From a virus: a stretch of DNA of 64,000 nucleotides. The stretch is taken from positions 58,835 through 122,834 of IMG/VR virus record IMGVR_UViG_3300037083_000054; one strand, given 5' to 3'. The position numbers and the translations under genes are program-made. Each line of letters starts with the position of its first letter. Position 1 is the stretch's first letter. Positions 18,213 to 52,679 of this stretch are shown here, in pieces. The notes below the pieces were generated by a model. That model saw only the letters and a program-made list of their open reading frames with translations. It was not told the origin of the DNA and ran no database searches.

Positions 18213-19739
18213 ATGTCGTTCAAGATGAATCCGCTTTTTGCGACGGATGCGTATAAAATTGGTCATCATTCGATGACGCCGACTGGCACGCAGTACATTT
18301 ACTCCAATCTCACACCCCGTAAATCGCGAGTGACGGGACAGAATGAAGTGGTCGTGTTCGGTCTTCAGTATTTCCTTCAGGAGTATCTGATTGACCGATT
18401 CAACGAAGAGTTCTTCTCTCGTCCGCTGGGCAAACTGATTGATGAGTATCAATCAACAATGGATTCCTACCTCGGATTCGGAGCGGTCACAACGGATCAT
18501 ATCGCCGCATTGCACGAGTTGGGCTATTTGCCGCTTCTCATCAAGTCCTTACCGGAAGGAACGCTCTGCCCGATCAAAGTGCCGATGCTGACGATCGTGA
18601 ATACGCATCCCGATTTCCCGTGGCTGACGAATTATCTCGAAACCATCATGTCAGCCTGTCTGTGGCAACCCTGCACGTCAGCAACCACGGCTTATCAGTT
18701 TCGAAAACGATTCGACAGAGCCTCCGAAGAATCAGGGCTTGACGTGTCGTTTAACAAATTCATGGGACATGATTTCTCGTTTCGCGGGATGTCGTCGCTC
18801 GAATCGGCGATGCTGTCGGGAGCGGGGCATCTGACGTCATTCGTTGGAACGGATACGATTCCCGCAGTCAAATTCATTGAGCGATATTATCCAGGTAACA
18901 ATGGATTGATCGGAGCGAGCGTATTTGCCACGGAGCACAGCATTGCGTGCCTGCTGTCAGACGACTTCGCTCGCAAGATTGTTCCGACAGGTGAGTCCGG
19001 AGAAAATCTCTTGGCTCGCGGAGAGATCGAGCATGTCCGCTATCTCATTACCGAAGTCTATCCGAAAGGAATCGTGTCGATCGTTTCGGATACATGGGAC
19101 TTCTGGTCTCTGATCACTGTCGGCATGAGAGAATTGCGTGGCGACATTCTCGCTCGTGACGGCAAAGTCGTGTCTCGCCCTGATAGCGGCGATCCCGTCA
19201 AAATCATTTGTGGTGACCGCGATGCGAAGATCGACTCTCCAGAGTTCAAAGGGGCGGTCGAATGCCTCTGGGACATCTTCGGCGGTTCATGGACGAACAA
19301 GGGATATCGAATGCTCGATCCTCATGTGGGAGCGATCTATGGCGATTCCATCAATCTCGAACGCCAAGATCAAATCATCAATGGCCTGATGAAGAAAGGA
19401 TTCGCTCCAGAAACAGTCCTTGGCATCGGATCGTACTCCTATCAGTTCGTGACTCGCGACACATTCGGATTCGCCATGAAAGCGACATGGGGCCAAGTGA
19501 ACGGCGAACCTCGCGAAATCTATAAAGATCCGAAAACCGACAAGGGCAGCGAAAAGAAATCCGCCAAAGGATTGTTGGCCGTCTATCTCGATGACTTTGG
19601 CAAGATGCGATTGTACGATCAATGCACGAGGCAACAGGAACGCGGCGGAATGTTGACGCCTGTTTTTGAAGACGGCAAGATCTTGCGTACAGACTCGTTG
19701 GCGGATATTCGGTATCGGTTGCATGGGGATAATTTCTGA
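18213..19739 (+). CDS. nadV: Nicotinamide phosphoribosyltransferase
   Basis: A 508-residue protein, full length for the family. Diagnostic segments: FATDAYKIGHHSM at the start, FMGHDFSFRGMSSLESAM, SFVGTDTIPA, VFATEHSIACL, SRPDSGDPVKI (phosphate binding) and GFAMKATW. It converts nicotinamide and PRPP to NMN. With the adjacent PRPP synthetase it can rebuild NAD+ precursors from the nicotinamide released by NAD-cleaving defences. NMN adenylyltransferase was not found in the window; the host enzyme or a gene elsewhere would be needed. Confidence 0.9.
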   Translation: MSFKMNPLFATDAYKIGHHSMTPTGTQYIYSNLTPRKSRVTGQNEVVVFGLQYFLQEYLIDRFNEEFFSRPLGKLIDEYQSTMDSYLGFGAVTTDHIAALHELGYLPLLIKSLPEGTLCPIKVPMLTIVNTHPDFPWLTNYLETIMSACLWQPCTSATTAYQFRKRFDRASEESGLDVSFNKFMGHDFSFRGMSSLESAMLSGAGHLTSFVGTDTIPAVKFIERYYPGNNGLIGASVFATEHSIACLLSDDFARKIVPTGESGENLLARGEIEHVRYLITEVYPKGIVSIVSDTWDFWSLITVGMRELRGDILARDGKVVSRPDSGDPVKIICGDRDAKIDSPEFKGAVECLWDIFGGSWTNKGYRMLDPHVGAIYGDSINLERQDQIINGLMKKGFAPETVLGIGSYSYQFVTRDTFGFAMKATWGQVNGEPREIYKDPKTDKGSEKKSAKGLLAVYLDDFGKMRLYDQCTRQQERGGMLTPVFEDGKILRTDSLADIRYRLHGDNF

Positions 19740-20920: not shown

Positions 20921-21622
20921 ATGATCAAATACGAAGATTCCGCTGGCTATAAACTAGAACGCGAAGTTCGCCAGCTGATGGATAAACGATTTGCCTCGTT
21001 CCAAGTTCAGGAACGATTGCGGAGCGGAATCTATCGCTCGTGGTACTGTGCCGAGCCGGGTCAGTGGGATTGTTCGTTCACGATCACAACAATTCCAGGT
21101 CGGTTGATTATGACTGGCGATTTGGGATCACTGATTGTCGAGCGATGTTACGACATGCTCCCGTGGTGTCGCGGCTCCTGCGAATCGACTGGATACTTCG
21201 CCGAGAAAGTTCCGCGAGAGATGCCGACAACCGAGTTCTCTGAGGATGTTCTCAGGGAATGGATTCAGGATGAGATTGAGGAGCTTGAAGAAGCTAAGGC
21301 TAGTTGGGATGAAGAATCTGATCCGACAGGAAATCATGTCGATGAGATAGCGTCCAAAATCGAACTGTTGCAGGAAACTCTCGAATGGGACATGGAAAAC
21401 GGGGAAGCCTATTTCGCCAGAAAACTCGAAGATGTCTGGCAAGGAAATGACTATCCAAACTGGCGCGTCTGGAAACGTCAATTCCTCGTGCAGCGAGAAG
21501 CGATTCGTTGGTTCGCGATGAACCATAGCGAACCAGAAATTAGAGATCCCGATCGCATTGAGCGATCAGCCGTTCGTGTTCCGGCATCTGAACACAAAAC
21601 AACAGAAGGAACCGAATTATGA
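20921..21622 (+). CDS. Conserved phage protein of unknown function
   Basis: 233 residues. The segment [20 protein letters not shown] followed by [12 protein letters not shown] and YFAEKVPRE resembles an uncharacterised protein found in many tailed phages. The second half is an acidic helical region ([19 protein letters not shown]). The stop overlaps the ATG of the DUF1559 gene (ATGA), which ties that gene to the phage operon. Confidence 0.6.
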
Positions 21623-22746
21623 AGCAAACATCAGGTCACTCGAACCATCGGAAAGGATTCACGCTCATCGAGCTATTGGTGGTGATTTCGATCATCGCCG
21701 TTTTAGTCTCATTAGTCGCACCGGCGGTCCAGGCGGCACGGCGTGCGGCACGGCGAATCGAATGTCTCAACAACATGCGAAACGTGGCTCTGTCGATTCA
21801 GAATTTTTCCGTAGTGCAAAACGGAACATTGCCATCGCTCACGATGGATCTGCCCGACTTCAATGGTCAGCTGACTGTCTATGAAACATCGTGGGCCGTG
21901 CAATTGTTACCGGGACTCGATCAGTCGAATTTGTACAAAAGTCTGCGAAACAATGTGGTCGCGAGCGGAACAACAGGAGCGGGCATCTACTCGACGGCGG
22001 ATCTGATTTGGTTGCCGGTGTTTACGTGTCCGGAAGACAATGATTCCTATCGCCAAGTCGGCGGCTTGAGCTACGTCGTCAACTCGGGGTTTATTCCCGA
22101 TACGATTTGGGGCACGACCGAAGTCTATGCGTCTGGCGGACCATTCCTGCAACCGTATTTGATCGACTGGGACGCCAATGGTGTCTACTCACTCGATGGT
22201 GTGACGATGAACGGAACGCCTCCCCATTTGGATACCGCCGATCTGTCCATCCAGATCTCGACAGGTGTCTTCACGCGGCAAAATACCTACTACACGCCAA
22301 CGATTGACGCGTTGTCGATTGGAGACGGTTCAGGCAATACGCTGCTAGTGACGGAGAACGCGAATGCAGGGCCTTGGAATGCCAGTCGCGATTCCTTGAG
22401 CGGATATGGCGTGAATTATTTGGGATTCGGTTGTCGCATCCCGACCTCGTCGATGGTTCCGAGTCCCGCGTTATTCACCAGCACTTCGCTGCCATTGCAA
22501 ACGACTGCTGGATTTTCCAATGAGACGACCAATCCAGGATCTTACACAATCAATCGTAATCTTGCCGCCGCCGTCGGGACTGCACCTCGACCGAGTTCAT
22601 GGCACACAGGCGGCGTGAATGTGATGTTCGGTGATTCGCATGGTCAGTTTCTGAATGAGGGAATTGACCGACAGGTTTATGCGAAACTCTGCACGAGCAA
22701 TGGCGGGACGTTTGGTGAAACGACTTTGAACAATGCGAGTTACTGA
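21619..22746 (+). CDS. DUF1559 prepilin-like protein
   Basis: A 375-residue protein with the planctomycete hallmark layout: short basic N-terminus, type IV prepilin cleavage/methylation motif [19 protein letters not shown] with the conserved Glu at +5, then [19 protein letters not shown]. The C-terminus [20 protein letters not shown] matches the family's ending. Such proteins are expanded in Planctomycetota and probably form pseudopilus-like structures. Here it is embedded in a phage operon with ATGA overlap to the preceding gene and 3 bases to the next, so it is a stable phage gene rather than flanking host DNA. Confidence 0.85.
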
Positions 22747-45341: not shown

Positions 45342-47096
45342 ATGGATGCGAGTCGGTTTTTCAGCAAGAGTTACGTCATCAATCTTCCGTTCAAAACGGA
45401 TCGGCTTGAATCGTTTCAAAAATCTGTGCCGAAAATCTTAGGTGAGATTGAAGTGTGGCCAGCAGTGCATGGGGACTCCATCAAACATCCCGATTGCTGG
45501 TCGTCTGGTAATGGCAGTTGGGGATGTCTGCGATCGCATCTCCAGATCTTGGAACATGCCTATCAATACCAAGATGAAATCGAGTCATATTTGGTCTTGG
45601 AAGATGACGCGATTTTTCGTCCCGATTTCGACGAACTGTTCCCGCAGGTCATGGAAGAACTTAATCAGCATGAGTGGGAAATGTGTTACTTCGGCGGCCA
45701 GATTCTTCATGAATCGCAGCATCCCCCGCAAAAGATCAGTCAGAATCTCTACAGGCCCTACAACGTCAATCGCACCCATTGTTTCGCTCTTCATCGTCGA
45801 GGCTATGAAAAAGTCTATCGGCATTTAATGAATCTCCCTTACGAGGACGCATTCCACATCGACCATCATTTGGGCAGACTTCACGAATCAGGAACGCTCG
45901 CTGTCTACTGCTCCGGAAAATGGATTGTCGGACAAGACTCGGGATCATCGAATATTAGTGGGAAGCATAACTCCGCCGAGTGGTGGGTCGATCCCGAAAA
46001 ATACGCGGTCGAAACTCGAAAATGGCAATCAAAACCAGTCCCGGCTGTTTTTCTCGAATCTCCAATTCATGTGGCGATCGAACTGGAACGCGAAGGCTGG
46101 CATCGAGGGCACTGGCAGGATCATCAGCATCTCGATCGAGGGGTGTGTGAAGCATTGACGTCATTGGATGTCAAAAGCGGACTTGTGAATTGGTTCCGAG
46201 CGGTCCAACCGGAAGCAAGTCGAGAAGGAAAGAAATGCATTTGCCTCTATCATCCGACTTTACATCTGTCCTGCGTTCAATCGCTCGATTGTGGGCCATT
46301 CCATCATATCGTTGCCAAAACAGTTGAAGAGGCTCGGCAGAAATTCGCGGAGATCGAAGCGCCGCCCACTGTAACGACAAAGCCAACACGGAACCTGATC
46401 TATCACATCTGGCCAAAATCTGGGAACGGGAAATGGCAATGGAATGTCCAAGAGCTACTGAAACGCATTGATCAGTTCGATGGCGTGCGATCTGTGGCCA
46501 TCGCAACCGATCTGATGACCGATTCGGTGGAAGACGTCAAAGCGGCCTTTGGATCGCATCGCATCGACAATTGGCTGATTTGTCCGAATGATCCAAAGCT
46601 TGGTGAAGTCGTCACGTTTCGAAGCCTACTCCAATCACTTCCGAAAGACGATGATTCCATTACATTCTACGGCCATGCCAAGGGCGTAAAATACGACGAT
46701 CCGGAATACAACAAGGAATGGTCACGGATGATGTATGAGATTTGCCTGGACGATCCGACCTTCGTTGATGCCAGTCTCTCGCAATACGACTGCACGGGAC
46801 CATTTCTGAACGACCATCAGAAAAACAAACCCTTTGATGCAACGTGGCATTATTCCGGGAACTTCTTCTGGTTCAAAAACACTCCTGTTTTTCGATCACG
46901 ATGGGATGATATCAAGGAATGGTATTTTGGGGTCGAGATGTGGATTGGTCGCGTCCTCGAACGAGCGGAGGCCGGATGTTTGTTCGGGAATGGCGTCAAT
47001 CATTTGTGGGAAGATGAACAGGCCGCGAATACGCGAGCGGACCTCGACCGGTGGGTGCAAGAGGGGAATACGAGAACGAGGATCAGCGAACAATGA
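45342..47096 (+). CDS. Three-module glycosyltransferase (GT25 + shared modules)
   Basis: 584 residues. Residues ~5-215 are GT25-like: SYVINLPFKTDRLESFQKSV, GCLRSHLQILEHA and YLVLEDDAIFRPDFDEL (catalytic acidic motif). A middle module (~225-345) with VFLESPIHVAIELEREGWHR and a C-terminal module (~350-565) with NLIYHIWPKSGNGKWQWNVQ, TWHYSGNFFWFKN and YFGVEMWIGR recur in the next gene; the latter also in the 39441 gene. Domain shuffling is evident. Likely transfers sugars to phage proteins or surface glycans. Coupled to the next gene by ATGA. Confidence 0.7.
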   Translation: MDASRFFSKSYVINLPFKTDRLESFQKSVPKILGEIEVWPAVHGDSIKHPDCWSSGNGSWGCLRSHLQILEHAYQYQDEIESYLVLEDDAIFRPDFDELFPQVMEELNQHEWEMCYFGGQILHESQHPPQKISQNLYRPYNVNRTHCFALHRRGYEKVYRHLMNLPYEDAFHIDHHLGRLHESGTLAVYCSGKWIVGQDSGSSNISGKHNSAEWWVDPEKYAVETRKWQSKPVPAVFLESPIHVAIELEREGWHRGHWQDHQHLDRGVCEALTSLDVKSGLVNWFRAVQPEASREGKKCICLYHPTLHLSCVQSLDCGPFHHIVAKTVEEARQKFAEIEAPPTVTTKPTRNLIYHIWPKSGNGKWQWNVQELLKRIDQFDGVRSVAIATDLMTDSVEDVKAAFGSHRIDNWLICPNDPKLGEVVTFRSLLQSLPKDDDSITFYGHAKGVKYDDPEYNKEWSRMMYEICLDDPTFVDASLSQYDCTGPFLNDHQKNKPFDATWHYSGNFFWFKNTPVFRSRWDDIKEWYFGVEMWIGRVLERAEAGCLFGNGVNHLWEDEQAANTRADLDRWVQEGNTRTRISEQ

Positions 47097-48709
47097 ACAC
47101 GCCTCCATGCGTCTTTCTGGAATCATCAACTCAAGTCGCGATGGATCTCGATCATCAAGGTTGGCATCGAGGCAACTGGCGAGATGATTATGCGATTGAT
47201 CAGTTGGTCTCGAAAAGCGTGGCCAGCGGAAACATGCATTTATTGAACGATTGGTATCCTATCGCAATTCAAGAAGCCCGCGAACAAGGCAAAGCATGTG
47301 CCTGCTTGTTTCACCCTCTGCTGACATTGGAGCAAATTCGCAGCACATTTATTTACCCGATGATTCCGATTCAATCGTGGTGTGCCGAAGAGGCCGCAGA
47401 GAAATTGCGTCTCGTGCGTTCCGTGTCACTTCGACCGCCGAAACCGGTTCGGAACCTGATTTATCATATCTGGCCCCGTAAAGGAAACGGCGTTTGGCAA
47501 TGGAATGTTCGACAACTGATCGAACGAATCGAGCAATTCGACGGGGTGCGTTCCATCGGAGTTGTTCTGGATGCGACGACCGATTCGATAGAGGATGTGA
47601 GAGCGATGTTCTCCGGACATCGAATTGATCACTGGATCGTCGAAAATAATAACCCCGACTATGGAGAAATGGTTACTATTCGTCAGTTATTGAATACGCT
47701 TCCGAAAGATCAGGGGATTACATTCTATGCCCACTCGAAAGGGGCTCGGTACGAACATGCGGAATTAATTAAGGAGTGGGCACGCATCGGTTATTCCGCC
47801 AGTCTGGATTGGCCTTATTGGGTTGCTTCGGTCCTTGAGGAGCATCCTTGTGCCGGTCCGTTCTTTCGCACGGATTCGACGGGTTGGTATTATTCCGGCA
47901 CATTCTTCTGGTTTCGCAACCAAGATGTTTTCGCTCGCCCGAACGCCTACCCGGACGGCGGCAACCGTTGGGGCGTCGAAATGTGGCTACGAAACCTGTT
48001 TAGCCGAGAAGAGGCAGGTCGCTTAATCGGAAATCAAGTGGGCCATCTTTATGATCCCAATGCTCTCGCACCTGTGCAGAGGATGCATGACTGGTGGAAG
48101 AAAATACAACCGAATGTGAACGCCGTTTCTCCGTCAATCTCGGTGATCATCCCAACACTCGGACGCCCTTGGATTCGGCGAATGATCGAATCGCTTCTGG
48201 TTCAAATTGGCTCGAATGACGAAATTATTGTCGTAGCCGATGGGTCAGAGGCTCACGCAAGGGCTATTGAGTATTGCGTGGGGCTACCGGTGATCATCAG
48301 TGAAGCATCGAATCCGCAATCTGTCTACGGAAATCATCAACGCAATCTCGGCGTGAAAATGGCCGTGAAGGATGTTCTCTGGTTCTGTGATGACGATGAT
48401 CTTGTTCCGCCCTATGCGATGGCGAAAATCCGGCAGGTCATGGCGAAAGACATGCGACCAACAATGTTCCGGCAGAATCATCAGGGAGTCGCCATTTGGC
48501 AATCAAAACAGATTGTCGATTCGCAGGTCTCTTCCACGCAAATGCTGATGCCGAATGTGCCCGATATTTTGCCATTTCCTGTTCCGACATTCCCCGATCG
48601 CGGTTCCGACTTGCGATGGATTCAGGAAATCAATAGTAAGTCACCGATCAATTGGGAGGAGTCCATTATTTATGTCTGTGAACAATCGCGATTCGGTCGC
48701 TTTGAATAA
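47093..48709 (+). CDS. Modular glycosyltransferase with C-terminal GT2 domain
   Basis: 538 residues from ATG 47093. Module 1 (~1-115) FLESSTQVAMDLDHQGWHRG; module 2 (~120-335) NLIYHIWPRKGNGVWQWNVR and WYYSGTFFWFRN; residues ~350-530 a GT2 domain with SVIIPTLGRPWIRRMIESLL, QRNLGVKMAVKDVLWFCDDD (DDDD at the DxD position). Thus it is the preceding protein with GT25 replaced and a GT2 added at the other end. The 3' end overlaps the radical SAM gene by 38 bases. Confidence 0.7.
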   Translation: MNTPPCVFLESSTQVAMDLDHQGWHRGNWRDDYAIDQLVSKSVASGNMHLLNDWYPIAIQEAREQGKACACLFHPLLTLEQIRSTFIYPMIPIQSWCAEEAAEKLRLVRSVSLRPPKPVRNLIYHIWPRKGNGVWQWNVRQLIERIEQFDGVRSIGVVLDATTDSIEDVRAMFSGHRIDHWIVENNNPDYGEMVTIRQLLNTLPKDQGITFYAHSKGARYEHAELIKEWARIGYSASLDWPYWVASVLEEHPCAGPFFRTDSTGWYYSGTFFWFRNQDVFARPNAYPDGGNRWGVEMWLRNLFSREEAGRLIGNQVGHLYDPNALAPVQRMHDWWKKIQPNVNAVSPSISVIIPTLGRPWIRRMIESLLVQIGSNDEIIVVADGSEAHARAIEYCVGLPVIISEASNPQSVYGNHQRNLGVKMAVKDVLWFCDDDDLVPPYAMAKIRQVMAKDMRPTMFRQNHQGVAIWQSKQIVDSQVSSTQMLMPNVPDILPFPVPTFPDRGSDLRWIQEINSKSPINWEESIIYVCEQSRFGRFE

Positions 48710-49793
48710 TGAATACACATCGAAGAAAGCGGCATTCCAGTTCTCGGCACTTCACGAACTATTGCAAGGTCGCCAACCCAATCCCACGCATGTTCTGATT
48801 GTTCTTTCTGACCTGTGTTCCCATGACTGCGTGTTCTGTTTATTCCGAGCATCGGGTTATGACACATCGAAGTATTTCGGGGAAATCAAACCAAATGGAA
48901 ATGTTCAGAAAAACCCAAACCGGATGATTCCTTTCCACAAAGTCATCGAGATTATTGATGATTGCAAGATAATGGGTGTCAAAGCGATCGAATTTACAGG
49001 CGGAGGAGAACCGACGCTCCATCCGCAATTTGATGCGATTGTGAGACACGCCCTAGAAAGCGGAATGGAGGTATCGCTGGTCACGCATGGGGCCGCACTC
49101 AAAAATCGCGTTGATCTGGTAGCCAAGATGGAATGGATCAGAATCAGCCTGGATGCTGGTTCACCTGAAATGTACGCGAAGATTCATCGAGTGAACGGAC
49201 GACAATTTGATCAGGTTTTGGAAAATATTCGCAGTCTCGCCGAAGCGAAACGACGACTGGAAACGAATGTTACCATCGGCGTGTCTTTTGTCATGACCGA
49301 CGACAATTGGTACGAGTTGCTCAACGCCGTTGCAATGTGTCGGGATGTCGGAGCGGATACGTTCAGAATCTCTGCCGAATTCATTCCCGACGAGCATTTG
49401 TTCGCACGTGGTCGATTGGAATCAGGACGGCTCTTGGCTGAACAGGCTGAAGAACTCCAAACCGACACTTTTCGCATTCACAATCACTGGAGTAAAAAAA
49501 CGAATGTTTCCGAAATCGGGCAACCCGATTATTCTACCTGCTGGTATCAGCAATTCACGACATTCATCGGAGGGGATCAAAATGTCTATCGTTGCTGTCG
49601 GACCTCCTATCAAGAACGTGGTTTGATTGGGTCGATTGCAAATCAGTCGTTCCGAGACCTGTGGGAGAGCGATCACAAGCAACAGCGATTCGCTCAGTTC
49701 GACGCTCGCGGATGTCGGGACTGTCACGTTAATGACCGGAATCGAGAAGTCGAACTCCTCATGCATCCGCCACGTCATGTCAACTTTGTTTGA
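48672..49793 (+). CDS. Radical SAM protein with SPASM-like C-terminus
   Basis: 373 residues from ATG 48672 (GGGAGGAG upstream). The cluster motif is CSHDCVFC (CX3CX2C) near residue 45, then EFTGGGEPTLHPQFDAI (GGE motif) and RISLDAGSPEMY. The C-terminal region has CWYQ..., YRCCRTSYQERGLIGSI and GCRDCHVN, a second Cys-rich cluster site as in SPASM/twitch proteins. It would reductively cleave SAM for a radical modification, perhaps of a peptide or sugar. It is a paralogue of the intein-bearing protein at 50439; both end in a -(D)VxF(I/V) sequence. Confidence 0.8.
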   Translation: MSVNNRDSVALNNEYTSKKAAFQFSALHELLQGRQPNPTHVLIVLSDLCSHDCVFCLFRASGYDTSKYFGEIKPNGNVQKNPNRMIPFHKVIEIIDDCKIMGVKAIEFTGGGEPTLHPQFDAIVRHALESGMEVSLVTHGAALKNRVDLVAKMEWIRISLDAGSPEMYAKIHRVNGRQFDQVLENIRSLAEAKRRLETNVTIGVSFVMTDDNWYELLNAVAMCRDVGADTFRISAEFIPDEHLFARGRLESGRLLAEQAEELQTDTFRIHNHWSKKTNVSEIGQPDYSTCWYQQFTTFIGGDQNVYRCCRTSYQERGLIGSIANQSFRDLWESDHKQQRFAQFDARGCRDCHVNDRNREVELLMHPPRHVNFV

Positions 49794-49802
49794 AAGAGGG
49801 AA

Positions 49803-50393
49803 ATGACATCTCGTTATCATCTCAGCGTAATCACACCCACATGGCAACGACCGCGAACATTGGCGATGCAATGCGATCAAATCCGTCGTCAGAAACGAGG
49901 CTACCTGAACATCGAACATATCGTCGTTTCCGATGGGCCTGATCCCGAAGCAAGAGGCATCGCCGAACACTTCGGCTGCAAGTACATCGAACATGCCGAG
50001 AACAAAGGATGTGCCGGAGCGTTCGGGAGAGATACGGGAATCGCAGCGGCAGAAGGGGAATATTGTTGTTTCGCGGATGACGAGAACGCATTAGAGCATG
50101 ATGCTCTCGAAACCCTATACGGGGCGGCGATCGGATATGACATGGGCATCGTCCAATGCATTCATCGAGGGTTCAACGAATGGCGAAAAATCCCAGACAG
50201 TGACTGGGATATGAAGGAAATCGTGGTTCATAATGTGGATGTGATGTGCGCGTGTATTCGGACGGAGATTGCCAAACAGTTTTCGTTTGCGGAAGAACCC
50301 GTGTACGATCACGATCACAGAACTTTTGCCAGAATTCAACGGGCTGGATACTCGGTCAATTTCGTTCCCGTTGTAATTGGGATTCATCTCTGA
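49803..50393 (+). CDS. GT2 glycosyltransferase
   Basis: 196 residues, a minimal GT-A domain: HLSVITPTWQRPRTLAMQCD, EHIVVSDGPDPEARGIAEHF, EGEYCCFADDENALEHDALE with DDE at the nucleotide-sugar/metal site, and a C-terminal YDHDHRTFARIQRAGYSVNF. Lies between the two radical SAM genes. Substrate unknown. Confidence 0.75.
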   Translation: MTSRYHLSVITPTWQRPRTLAMQCDQIRRQKRGYLNIEHIVVSDGPDPEARGIAEHFGCKYIEHAENKGCAGAFGRDTGIAAAEGEYCCFADDENALEHDALETLYGAAIGYDMGIVQCIHRGFNEWRKIPDSDWDMKEIVVHNVDVMCACIRTEIAKQFSFAEEPVYDHDHRTFARIQRAGYSVNFVPVVIGIHL

Positions 50394-50438
50394 CCATTTT
50401 CCTGACGTCGGCAATATGGTTTAGACGGAGCGTTATTG

Positions 50439-51860
50439 ATGACAGCAGAAACCGCATTCGATCCCAAGGGCAAGCTTTTATTCCAAGCGGAGAAACTCGC
50501 TCAGTTTGCGAAAGGGGATATGTCGTTTTCTCCAGTCGCGGTCGAGATTTCGCCGACAAATGATTGCAATGCAAAATGCCCGTGGTGTGCAGTTGCCGGA
50601 ACAATGATTGCCGTTGAAAACGGATTCAAGCCAATCGAAGACATTCGAGTCGGAGATTTCGTTTATGGGCATGACGGAAAATTGTGTCGCGTGACATCTT
50701 TCGGCAATCGTGAAGTCAGCGAAATTTATCATATCCACTGTTCTGGACATGACATTCTCGTCAGTGGCGAACATCCTTTTTTGACATCGGATGGGTGGAA
50801 GACTGCGGAAGAAATAGCCGTTGGTGACCGTGCGTTTATTCGTGTCCATAAACGGACCGCAAATCTTCAGCAATATGACTGCGAGCATACTGGCAAGACA
50901 CTGGAACGCGGACTGCGGTTTCGATTCGTTTCCATCGCGAAGAAACGTGTTGGCGGATCGCGAGTTTACAATTTCTCGTGCGAGCCATCGGAATCCTACG
51001 AAGCAAACGGTTTCGTCGTTCATAATTGTTTCTACGTTTCATCGGAATACAAATCCCATCATTCGAAAGACGAACTCTCTTGGGATGTTCTGAAAGCTGC
51101 CCTGTCTGAAATGGCTGAAATGGGAGTGAAAGCCGTCACATGGACTGGCGGCGGCGATCCGTCAGTTTATTCGCATATCAACGAAGCGATCGAATATGCA
51201 GCAAGCCTGAATCTCAAACAAGGGATGTTCACGAATGCTTACCGACCCATCGCTAGACCCGATCTGCTTCAATGGCTGCGAGTGACTGTCACTGAGCGAT
51301 TTGTCATCACGAAGCATGTTGCGAAGTATGCCGAAGCCACGAAATGCGGTGTCAACTTTAATTTGTCTGTGGAGAACGCCTCGGAAGTGCTGTCGATGGC
51401 GACGGCGGCACGCGATGCTAAATGTGCGTACTTTCAGATACGTCCCGCGCTCGCGGACCGATGGGAGTTGCAAAAACCAGTTGTGATGCCGGAGTATCTG
51501 AAAACACTCGAAACGGACGATTTCAAAATCATTCTGACCCCCTATAAATTTTCCGATTACATGATGCCGCACGGGTATCCACTCTGTCATTCTTCAGTGT
51601 TTGTTCCATTTTTGTGGCACGACGGAAGCCTAAGCGTTTGTGCATATCACAGCAGCACGCTCGATGAGTTCTCGTTTGGCAACATCAATCAAATGTCGTT
51701 CAAGGAAATTTGGAACGGTGAAAAACGAAAGAAAATGCTGGCAGATGGAATTCGTGTCATCAAATCCTGTCAAAATTGTTGCAAGGGACATGAGGCGAAC
51801 AAAGTCCTTGCGGCGATTCGCGGCGAGATGTCCCCCCCGGACGATGTCGATTTTATTTGA
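50439..51860 (+). CDS. Radical SAM protein interrupted by a mini-intein
   Basis: 473 residues from ATG 50439 (a TTG lies just before it). Residues 43-50 read CNAKCPWC and are the radical SAM cluster motif, but residue 50 is also the first residue of an intein ending in VVHN before Cys197. Splicing would give a 326-residue enzyme reading CNAKCPWCFYVSS. The mature protein then has TWTGGGDPSVYSHI (GGE-like), and a C-terminal Cys set SVCAYHSSTLDEF, SCQNCCKG, like its paralogue at 48672. Without splicing the Fe-S motif and following residues are displaced by 147 residues. Confidence 0.8.
   Translation: MTAETAFDPKGKLLFQAEKLAQFAKGDMSFSPVAVEISPTNDCNAKCPWCAVAGTMIAVENGFKPIEDIRVGDFVYGHDGKLCRVTSFGNREVSEIYHIHCSGHDILVSGEHPFLTSDGWKTAEEIAVGDRAFIRVHKRTANLQQYDCEHTGKTLERGLRFRFVSIAKKRVGGSRVYNFSCEPSESYEANGFVVHNCFYVSSEYKSHHSKDELSWDVLKAALSEMAEMGVKAVTWTGGGDPSVYSHINEAIEYAASLNLKQGMFTNAYRPIARPDLLQWLRVTVTERFVITKHVAKYAEATKCGVNFNLSVENASEVLSMATAARDAKCAYFQIRPALADRWELQKPVVMPEYLKTLETDDFKIILTPYKFSDYMMPHGYPLCHSSVFVPFLWHDGSLSVCAYHSSTLDEFSFGNINQMSFKEIWNGEKRKKMLADGIRVIKSCQNCCKGHEANKVLAAIRGEMSPPDDVDFI
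50586..51026 (+). other. Mini-intein (147 residues, no homing endonuclease)
   Basis: Starts with Cys (CAVAGTMIAVENGFKPIEDI, block A), block B GHDILVSGEHPFLTSDGWKT with the conserved His, and ends RVYNFSCEPSE...VVHN followed by Cys+1. The penultimate His and terminal Asn needed for Asn cyclisation are present. At 147 residues there is no room for a homing endonuclease. The insertion point is directly before the third cysteine of the CX3CX2C motif; Cys+1 restores it. Confidence 0.85.
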
Positions 51861-51926
51861 TCGCAGAATTTCAAATGCGACAGAGGTGGCGTATTTGACG
51901 AAACAATGCTTTTGCTCGGATGAACG

Positions 51927-52679
51927 ATGATTGACAATCTGTTCGTGATCAACCTGAATCGTCGGCCTGACAGAATGACGGAACTCCGAGCGATCCTTCC
52001 GAAGTCGTTGAAGGAAATGAATCCTCAACGCTGGCCAGCGATCGACGGAAAACTCGTTTCTCCACCGAAATGGTACAAATCCGGCCCTGCGGCCTGGGGC
52101 TGCTTAAGGTCTCATTTGAACGTACTTGAGCACGCCATGATGCAAAATCTGACGTCGTATATGGTCTTGGAAGACGATTGTTGCTTTCGCCCGAACTTCG
52201 ACGAAGAATTGTCAAGTTTTTTTGCAGAAATACGAGACAAGGAATGGGGAATGGCTTATATCGGGGGGCAGCTCCTCGACACGTTTTCCAAACCGCCCGA
52301 GAAAATCTCGGAAAATTGCTATAAATCGTGGAATTGCCACCGACTTCACGCCGTAATTGTGAACCATTCCGCGTTTGCAACGTTATACCATCATCTGGTC
52401 TCTGATTGTCCGGACTTAATTGTCGATTATCGTGTTGGCGAATTGCATTCGAGAGGCGAGATTACCGCTCTATGTCCCGCTCGCTGGTTAGTGGGCCAGA
52501 GAGCGAGCCACAGCGATTTAATGGAACGAGACCGACCGAACGATGAATACTGGCTTGATCCGTGCGATGTCTATGAATCACATCAAATGATGTCGGATTA
52601 CTTCAAGGAAAATCCTTTGACAGAACTGGAGGTGGCCGCAAATGCAGCAAGAAGTTCGTCCATTCATGTCTCGAAGTGA
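51927..52679 (+). CDS. GT25-family glycosyltransferase
   Basis: 250 residues. IDNLFVINLNRRPDRMTELR, WGCLRSHLNVLEHAM and YMVLEDDCCFRPNFDEELSS match the first module of the 45342 protein. DDCCF holds the acidic pair expected at the active site. The middle IGGQLLDTFSKPPEKISENC also follows that module. It lacks the extra modules. Overlaps the next gene by 38 bases. Confidence 0.75.
   Translation: MIDNLFVINLNRRPDRMTELRAILPKSLKEMNPQRWPAIDGKLVSPPKWYKSGPAAWGCLRSHLNVLEHAMMQNLTSYMVLEDDCCFRPNFDEELSSFFAEIRDKEWGMAYIGGQLLDTFSKPPEKISENCYKSWNCHRLHAVIVNHSAFATLYHHLVSDCPDLIVDYRVGELHSRGEITALCPARWLVGQRASHSDLMERDRPNDEYWLDPCDVYESHQMMSDYFKENPLTELEVAANAARSSSIHVSK

Follow-up and report, generated by a model that had tools for sequence, protein, structure and literature searches.

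What is an intein doing inside the catalytic motif of a phage radical-SAM enzyme, and does it act there as a switch? The question is raised by a 64,000-nucleotide stretch (hereafter the window) of an IMG/VR virus record, IMGVR_UViG_3300037083_000054, which comprises 122,834 bases in total. An intact ORF of 473 residues (P0001; 50439-51860, ATG at 50439, stop codon at 51858-51860) is preceded there by a Shine-Dalgarno-like GGAG. Its first 49 residues (50439-50585, + strand) end in CNAKCPW, thereby supplying the first and second cysteines of the iron-sulfur cluster motif, and its last 277 residues (51027-51857, + strand) start with Cys+1 (codon 51027-51029), the third cluster cysteine, and comprise the remaining radical-SAM barrel and a SPASM domain. 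Between these two exteins lies a Hint domain of 147 residues and 16.45 kDa (50586-51026, + strand; residues 50-196), without endonuclease, which the first-pass annotation had described as a mini-intein with exactly these boundaries. The exteins match the radical-SAM (PF04055, 7e-8) and SPASM (PF13186, 3.8e-10) profiles, and the protein has the CX3CX2C motif, the radical-SAM domain and the C-terminal SPASM cysteines of a SPASM radical-SAM enzyme. Cysteines C383, C401, C444, and C448 of the SPASM domain are invariant in an alignment of ten sequences, and the host part of the predicted precursor structure is matched by Foldseek to the radical-SAM enzymes PqqE, BlsE, DesII, and SkfB.

The insert has the anatomy of a class-1 intein: an N-terminal Cys (C1, codon 50586-50588), a block-B [T/S]xxH motif (S60-G-E-H63), and a terminal His-Asn (H146-N147, ending at 51026) followed by Cys, all within a Hint fold. 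Its removal gives back a continuous host protein whose junction is identical to that of homologues with an empty site. The Hint profile PF13403 matches the intein above its cut-off (2.7e-8; 34.8 bits, cut-off 28.4), PF14890 falls just below it (6.6e-8; 32.9 bits, cut-off 35.8), and TIGR01443, which describes the intein C-terminal region, exceeds it (20.2 bits, cut-off 15.6). Detection by chance is excluded. The structure of the precursor, predicted from ten sequences with a mean pLDDT of 80.8, contains both folds in one model. Foldseek matches of the intein part include the gp41-1 intein (6qaz; TM 0.86, E 6e-9), the Mtu RecA mini-intein (5i0a; 0.80) and the Mch DnaB-1 intein. The pLDDT drops below 50 in the linker (residues 140-154) and on either side of the insertion (46-48 and 198-207). 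A class-3 intein had been considered because of Cys132 and was ruled out by the presence of C1.

Two positions depart from the usual pattern, as the block-F Asp is replaced by Asn129 and the block-F His by Glu136. Such changes might indicate a dead or cleavage-only Hint domain, in which splicing has been lost and the host gene inactivated. Block-F Asp and His are frequent in class-1 inteins but not strictly required, and the relatives of the window intein also lack them while keeping intact host ORFs. In addition, the core nucleophiles are all unaltered, and the host has an open ORF in which the SPASM cysteines are retained, which makes a dead domain very unlikely. The mini-intein is real and probably active. 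From its anatomy, its site and the empty-site homologues, we infer that the precursor splices.

The position of the insertion is defined by homologues that have no intein. The first-pass annotation had placed the intein precisely within the Fe-S motif and had suggested a comparison with empty-site phage homologues. This comparison yielded three viral proteins (L003, L004, and L005; 48-57% identity to the window protein) that read CNAKCPWCFYV or CGAECPWCFYV, i.e. C(N/G)A(K/E)CPWCFYV, at the insertion point. The predicted splice product reads CNAKCPWCFYV (CNAKCPWCFYVSSEYKSHHSK) at its junction, identical to the empty-site reading, so that the intein sits at the third cluster cysteine. The site is empty as well in two more distant homologues (L006 and L007). 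It had also been claimed that C1 and Cys+1 take turns as the third ligand, and indeed both occupy a single place. For the same reason, the claim that the motif is completed only after removal of the intein does not hold: the precursor already reads CNAKCPWC, C1 providing the third Cys, and since intein Cys1 and extein Cys+1 share one position, CX3CX2C exists in the unspliced and the spliced protein alike. With the window, a phage SPASM enzyme joins the known cases of inteins seated on an iron-sulfur ligand, where one cysteine position doubles as splicing nucleophile and cluster ligand.

An intein from another source, joined in during assembly, would be the trivial explanation, given that the contig is a metagenomic virus and that no close copy of the window intein was found in IMG/VR when the intein alone was used as query. 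Nevertheless, the insertion is codon-exact and lies at a site that the nearest relatives use, and the GC content of the intein (0.478) agrees with that of its flanks (0.485-0.497). The probability of such an artefact is next to negligible.

By BLAST and tree, the closest inteins are those of the IMG/VR viral loci L136, L134, and L193 (44-47% identity), with L173 further off (35%); the window intein groups with the first three in the tree (support 89/91, unstarred). All four are found in hosts of a sister radical-SAM family, to which a second SPASM radical-SAM gene of the window also belongs (P0002; 48672-49793, + strand; motif CSHDCVFC), itself free of intein. These inteins share with the window intein the motif and the VVHN/C end (the slash marks the splice junction), whereas they are longer (295-362 residues), encode a nuclease-like protein in their +1 frame, and reside in the sister family. 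The L193 intein (L193:3001-4086) is inserted at the second cluster Cys (CNQN/.../CHFC), three codons upstream of the third-Cys site. Together with the sister-family hosts, this indicates that one intein lineage occupies two neighboring cluster cysteines in two radical-SAM families.

In the middle of these four inteins, about 200 residues show no recognizable domain in the intein frame. The same DNA carries an ORF in the +1 frame (L134:615-1349; L136:1262-2056; L193:3179-3981; L173:905-1552), whose product is conserved between the four loci, with 30-45% identity to the first. It contains the motifs CxCGCG, NPM(R/K)xP, and PDF...K.IE...CLV, the last of which is a Vsr/DUF559-like nuclease pattern; the likeness to Vsr/DUF559 is at the motif level (E..F..W, PDF...K.IE, CLV). 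Searches of Pfam, PHROGs, and the PDB gave no significant match to the +1-frame protein, and its model is poor (pLDDT 59), with no significant Foldseek match. A free-standing ORF (L187) that shares an NNPM motif does match DUF559.

We asked how often the intein frame would be interrupted if the +1 protein was kept and its synonymous codons were permuted. No intein-frame stop occurs over 216-267 codons in the four relatives, versus 4.4-7.9 expected (P = 1e-4, 1.5e-4, 8.5e-4, and 2.7e-3), and therefore both frames are under constraint. Related inteins in probable terminase large subunit genes (L194-L206; HN/CDALRY) harbor HNH_3 endonucleases in the +2 frame (E 5e-12 to 1e-19; e.g. L202:3285-3902 and L198:3057-3647), and the combined P over 12 loci is 1e-16. 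Considering its motifs, and by analogy with the HNH_3 ORFs of the terminase-type inteins, the +1-frame protein is a probable homing endonuclease. The four ORFs would accordingly be predicted to have endonuclease activity, and the inteins closest to that of the window have the look of homing elements. These relatives are strong evidence, on computational grounds, that an endonuclease-like gene can reside in an overlapping frame of a phage intein.

A comparable arrangement is the ShiLan domain, which has a hidden out-of-frame HNH endonuclease inside a phage-gene insertion (PMC11855218). Like the relatives of the window intein, it has an endonuclease ORF in another frame of such an insertion, but it has no intein splicing domain, whereas the window element is a splicing domain without endonuclease. 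The same report cites a preprint from its group on non-canonical actinophage inteins (10.1101/2025.01.02.630785), in which overlapping-frame endonucleases in inteins may already have been reported.

The window intein shows what may be left after the loss of such an endonuclease. Both edges of the linker between its Hint halves (approximately 50829-50934, + strand) align at the DNA level with the +1-frame region of L134, L136, and L193: AFIRVHKRTAN in the window corresponds to AFVRVRMRTNS, and LERGL to LERGL, the peptide that the intein frame gives where the +1 protein has its conserved WSGVW(N). The +1 and +2 frames of the window intein are themselves short and interrupted by stops, so the similarity to an overlapping-frame endonuclease is confined to the edges, and no nuclease ORF of the +1-frame type was found elsewhere in its own record. 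Because both edges of the nuclease region are kept, the window intein resembles an endonuclease-loss form and looks like a mini-intein from which the nuclease was deleted. The short linker would point to loss rather than original absence.

To see how widely the third-Cys site is used, genomes and viral contigs were scanned with degenerate DNA patterns in which the start of an intein follows CNxxCx(aromatic)C. At this site, inteins interrupt about a dozen radical-SAM genes of viruses (L129, L134, L136, L143, L144, L145, L147, L155, L163, L173, and L178), and another one (L188) came from the nuclease search. The radical-SAM protein at L188:2-2146 has this third-Cys intein and, in frame, an insert that shows repeated NPM motifs as well as an HNH-like segment. 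Third-Cys inteins also occur in mostly archaeal enzymes that we take, from sequence recognition, to be of the AmmeMemoRadiSam type (...VSN/CQNY, ...VAN/CQNAD), and in presumably QueE-like enzymes (...SHN/CDTPF) and a Lokiarchaeal enzyme, whose families were assigned in the same way. A Microcystis phage match (H1), at first taken for a second radical-SAM intein, lies, judging by its sequence, in a family-A DNA polymerase.

In bacteria, the site recurs in NF038136 (rSAM_Rv_intein, intein-containing Rv2578c family radical SAM protein), where all 10 proteins that we read have a third-Cys intein. A strong match to this family is present in 53 of 199 sampled Actinomycetota genomes; about 16 of these matches span the intein part and most others cover the C-terminal extein only. 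The window protein scores 34.1 bits against a cut-off of 700 and falls outside the family. The Rv2578c-family inteins resemble that of the window in their insertion at the third Cys of CX3CX2C (GCSHACxYC/...SHN/CFAR), and differ from it in their radical-SAM family, their location on bacterial chromosomes, their size of about 290-355 residues and, in some of them, an intein frame that includes a LAGLIDADG-like insert. LAGLIDADG-like inserts are present in several third-Cys radical-SAM inteins. An analogous scan aimed at the first cluster Cys produced 15 matches, of which none lies in a coding intein. Since the scans were designed for the third-Cys site, they establish its recurrence rather than an enrichment over all sites.

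The third-Cys site is thus used across radical-SAM families by ordinary mobile inteins, and the site of the window intein is not unique, being a further example of a known arrangement. The recurrent cluster-Cys site and the overlapping-frame endonuclease-like genes are more interesting than the original finding. We lean towards the combined view that the third cluster Cys is a general hot spot in viruses, archaea, and bacteria, that one viral lineage carries a homing endonuclease in the +1 frame, and that the window intein is a fossil of this overlapping state. If so, a single stretch of DNA would encode intein and nuclease at once.

The remaining question is whether splicing controls the enzyme. 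The first-pass annotation had proposed that it does, as a switch of activity that possibly responds to oxygen or iron. Cys-3 (C47) and Cys1 (C50) of the window protein are spaced as CxxC, like those of the Pyrococcus abyssi MoaA intein (Callahan et al. 2011), in which a Cys-3/Cys1 disulfide is reported to control splicing and oxidation to block it (as described in PMC3922620 and PMC10663303). Both hosts are radical-SAM enzymes, and the spacing is that of a C1 placed within the CX2C of the cluster motif; the Pyrococcus host is an archaeal MoaA rather than a phage SPASM enzyme, and the comparison is one of cysteine spacing. Because the window has the spacing of this redox trap as it is described there, redox-sensitive splicing is chemically plausible, and by this analogy oxidation would be expected to affect the window intein.

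A selected redox or oxygen switch goes further, as the disulfide within CPWC would lock an unspliced, inactive enzyme and reduction would free it just as conditions allow the oxygen-sensitive cluster to assemble. The spacing shared with the MoaA intein, whose disulfide is reported to govern splicing (PMC3922620, PMC10663303), speaks for it, as does the presence of Cys-3 in all third-Cys inteins that we read. The spacing is nevertheless no evidence of selection, because third-Cys inteins inherit Cys-3 from the cluster motif, where it is ligand 2 and present regardless. Moreover, mobile inteins with endonuclease-like inserts use the same site, the related L193 intein at the second Cys has its upstream Cys at -4 rather than -3, and the close homologues have no intein. 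We therefore consider a selected switch rather unlikely, and of the original proposal the chemical plausibility is what stands. The third-Cys inteins with Cys-3 and the second-Cys intein of L193 form a natural series for distinguishing selected from incidental redox control, and loaded versus empty homologues provide a second contrast.

For the iron or metal part of the proposal, the analysis found no evidence. An iron sensor would require that C43 and C47 of the precursor and intein C1 bind iron or a cluster whose occupancy controls splicing, and the precursor does literally contain CX3CX2C with C1 as third ligand. On the other hand, the literature searched offered no precedent, and the precursor model predicts no formed cluster site, since segments 46-48 and 198-207 beside the insertion have a pLDDT below 50. 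Such a sensor is most improbable.

We favor with good confidence a splicing-competent mini-intein that descends from mobile viral radical-SAM inteins, has lost its endonuclease, is retained in the catalytic motif and is slowed by oxidation. Self-excision from the 53.1-kDa precursor would proceed through a Cys1 thioester, transfer to Cys+1 and Asn cyclization, leaving a 326-residue enzyme of 36.6 kDa with an intact CX3CX2C cluster motif. The ancestors would have been mobile inteins of viral radical-SAM genes with a probable homing endonuclease in the overlapping +1 frame, which the window lineage later lost. Splicing would probably be on by default in a reducing cytoplasm, and oxidation to the Cys-3/Cys1 disulfide would slow it. 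The intein most likely persists because its site is an indispensable catalytic motif, where imprecise loss or failed splicing would kill the enzyme; Cys+1 would have to stay, being both splicing nucleophile and cluster ligand.

The two SPASM radical-SAM genes are surrounded by GT2 and GT25 glycosyltransferase-like genes (45342-52676). A domain common to the ORFs at 47051 and 45342 recurs next to the intein-free homologues L004 and L005. Elsewhere in the window, a DUF1559 protein with an N-methylation pilin-like start (21619-22743) gives a possible hint at a host among Planctomycetes, in which this family is expanded, and a phage nicotinamide phosphoribosyltransferase (phrog_448, E 4e-184) is encoded at 18213-19736.
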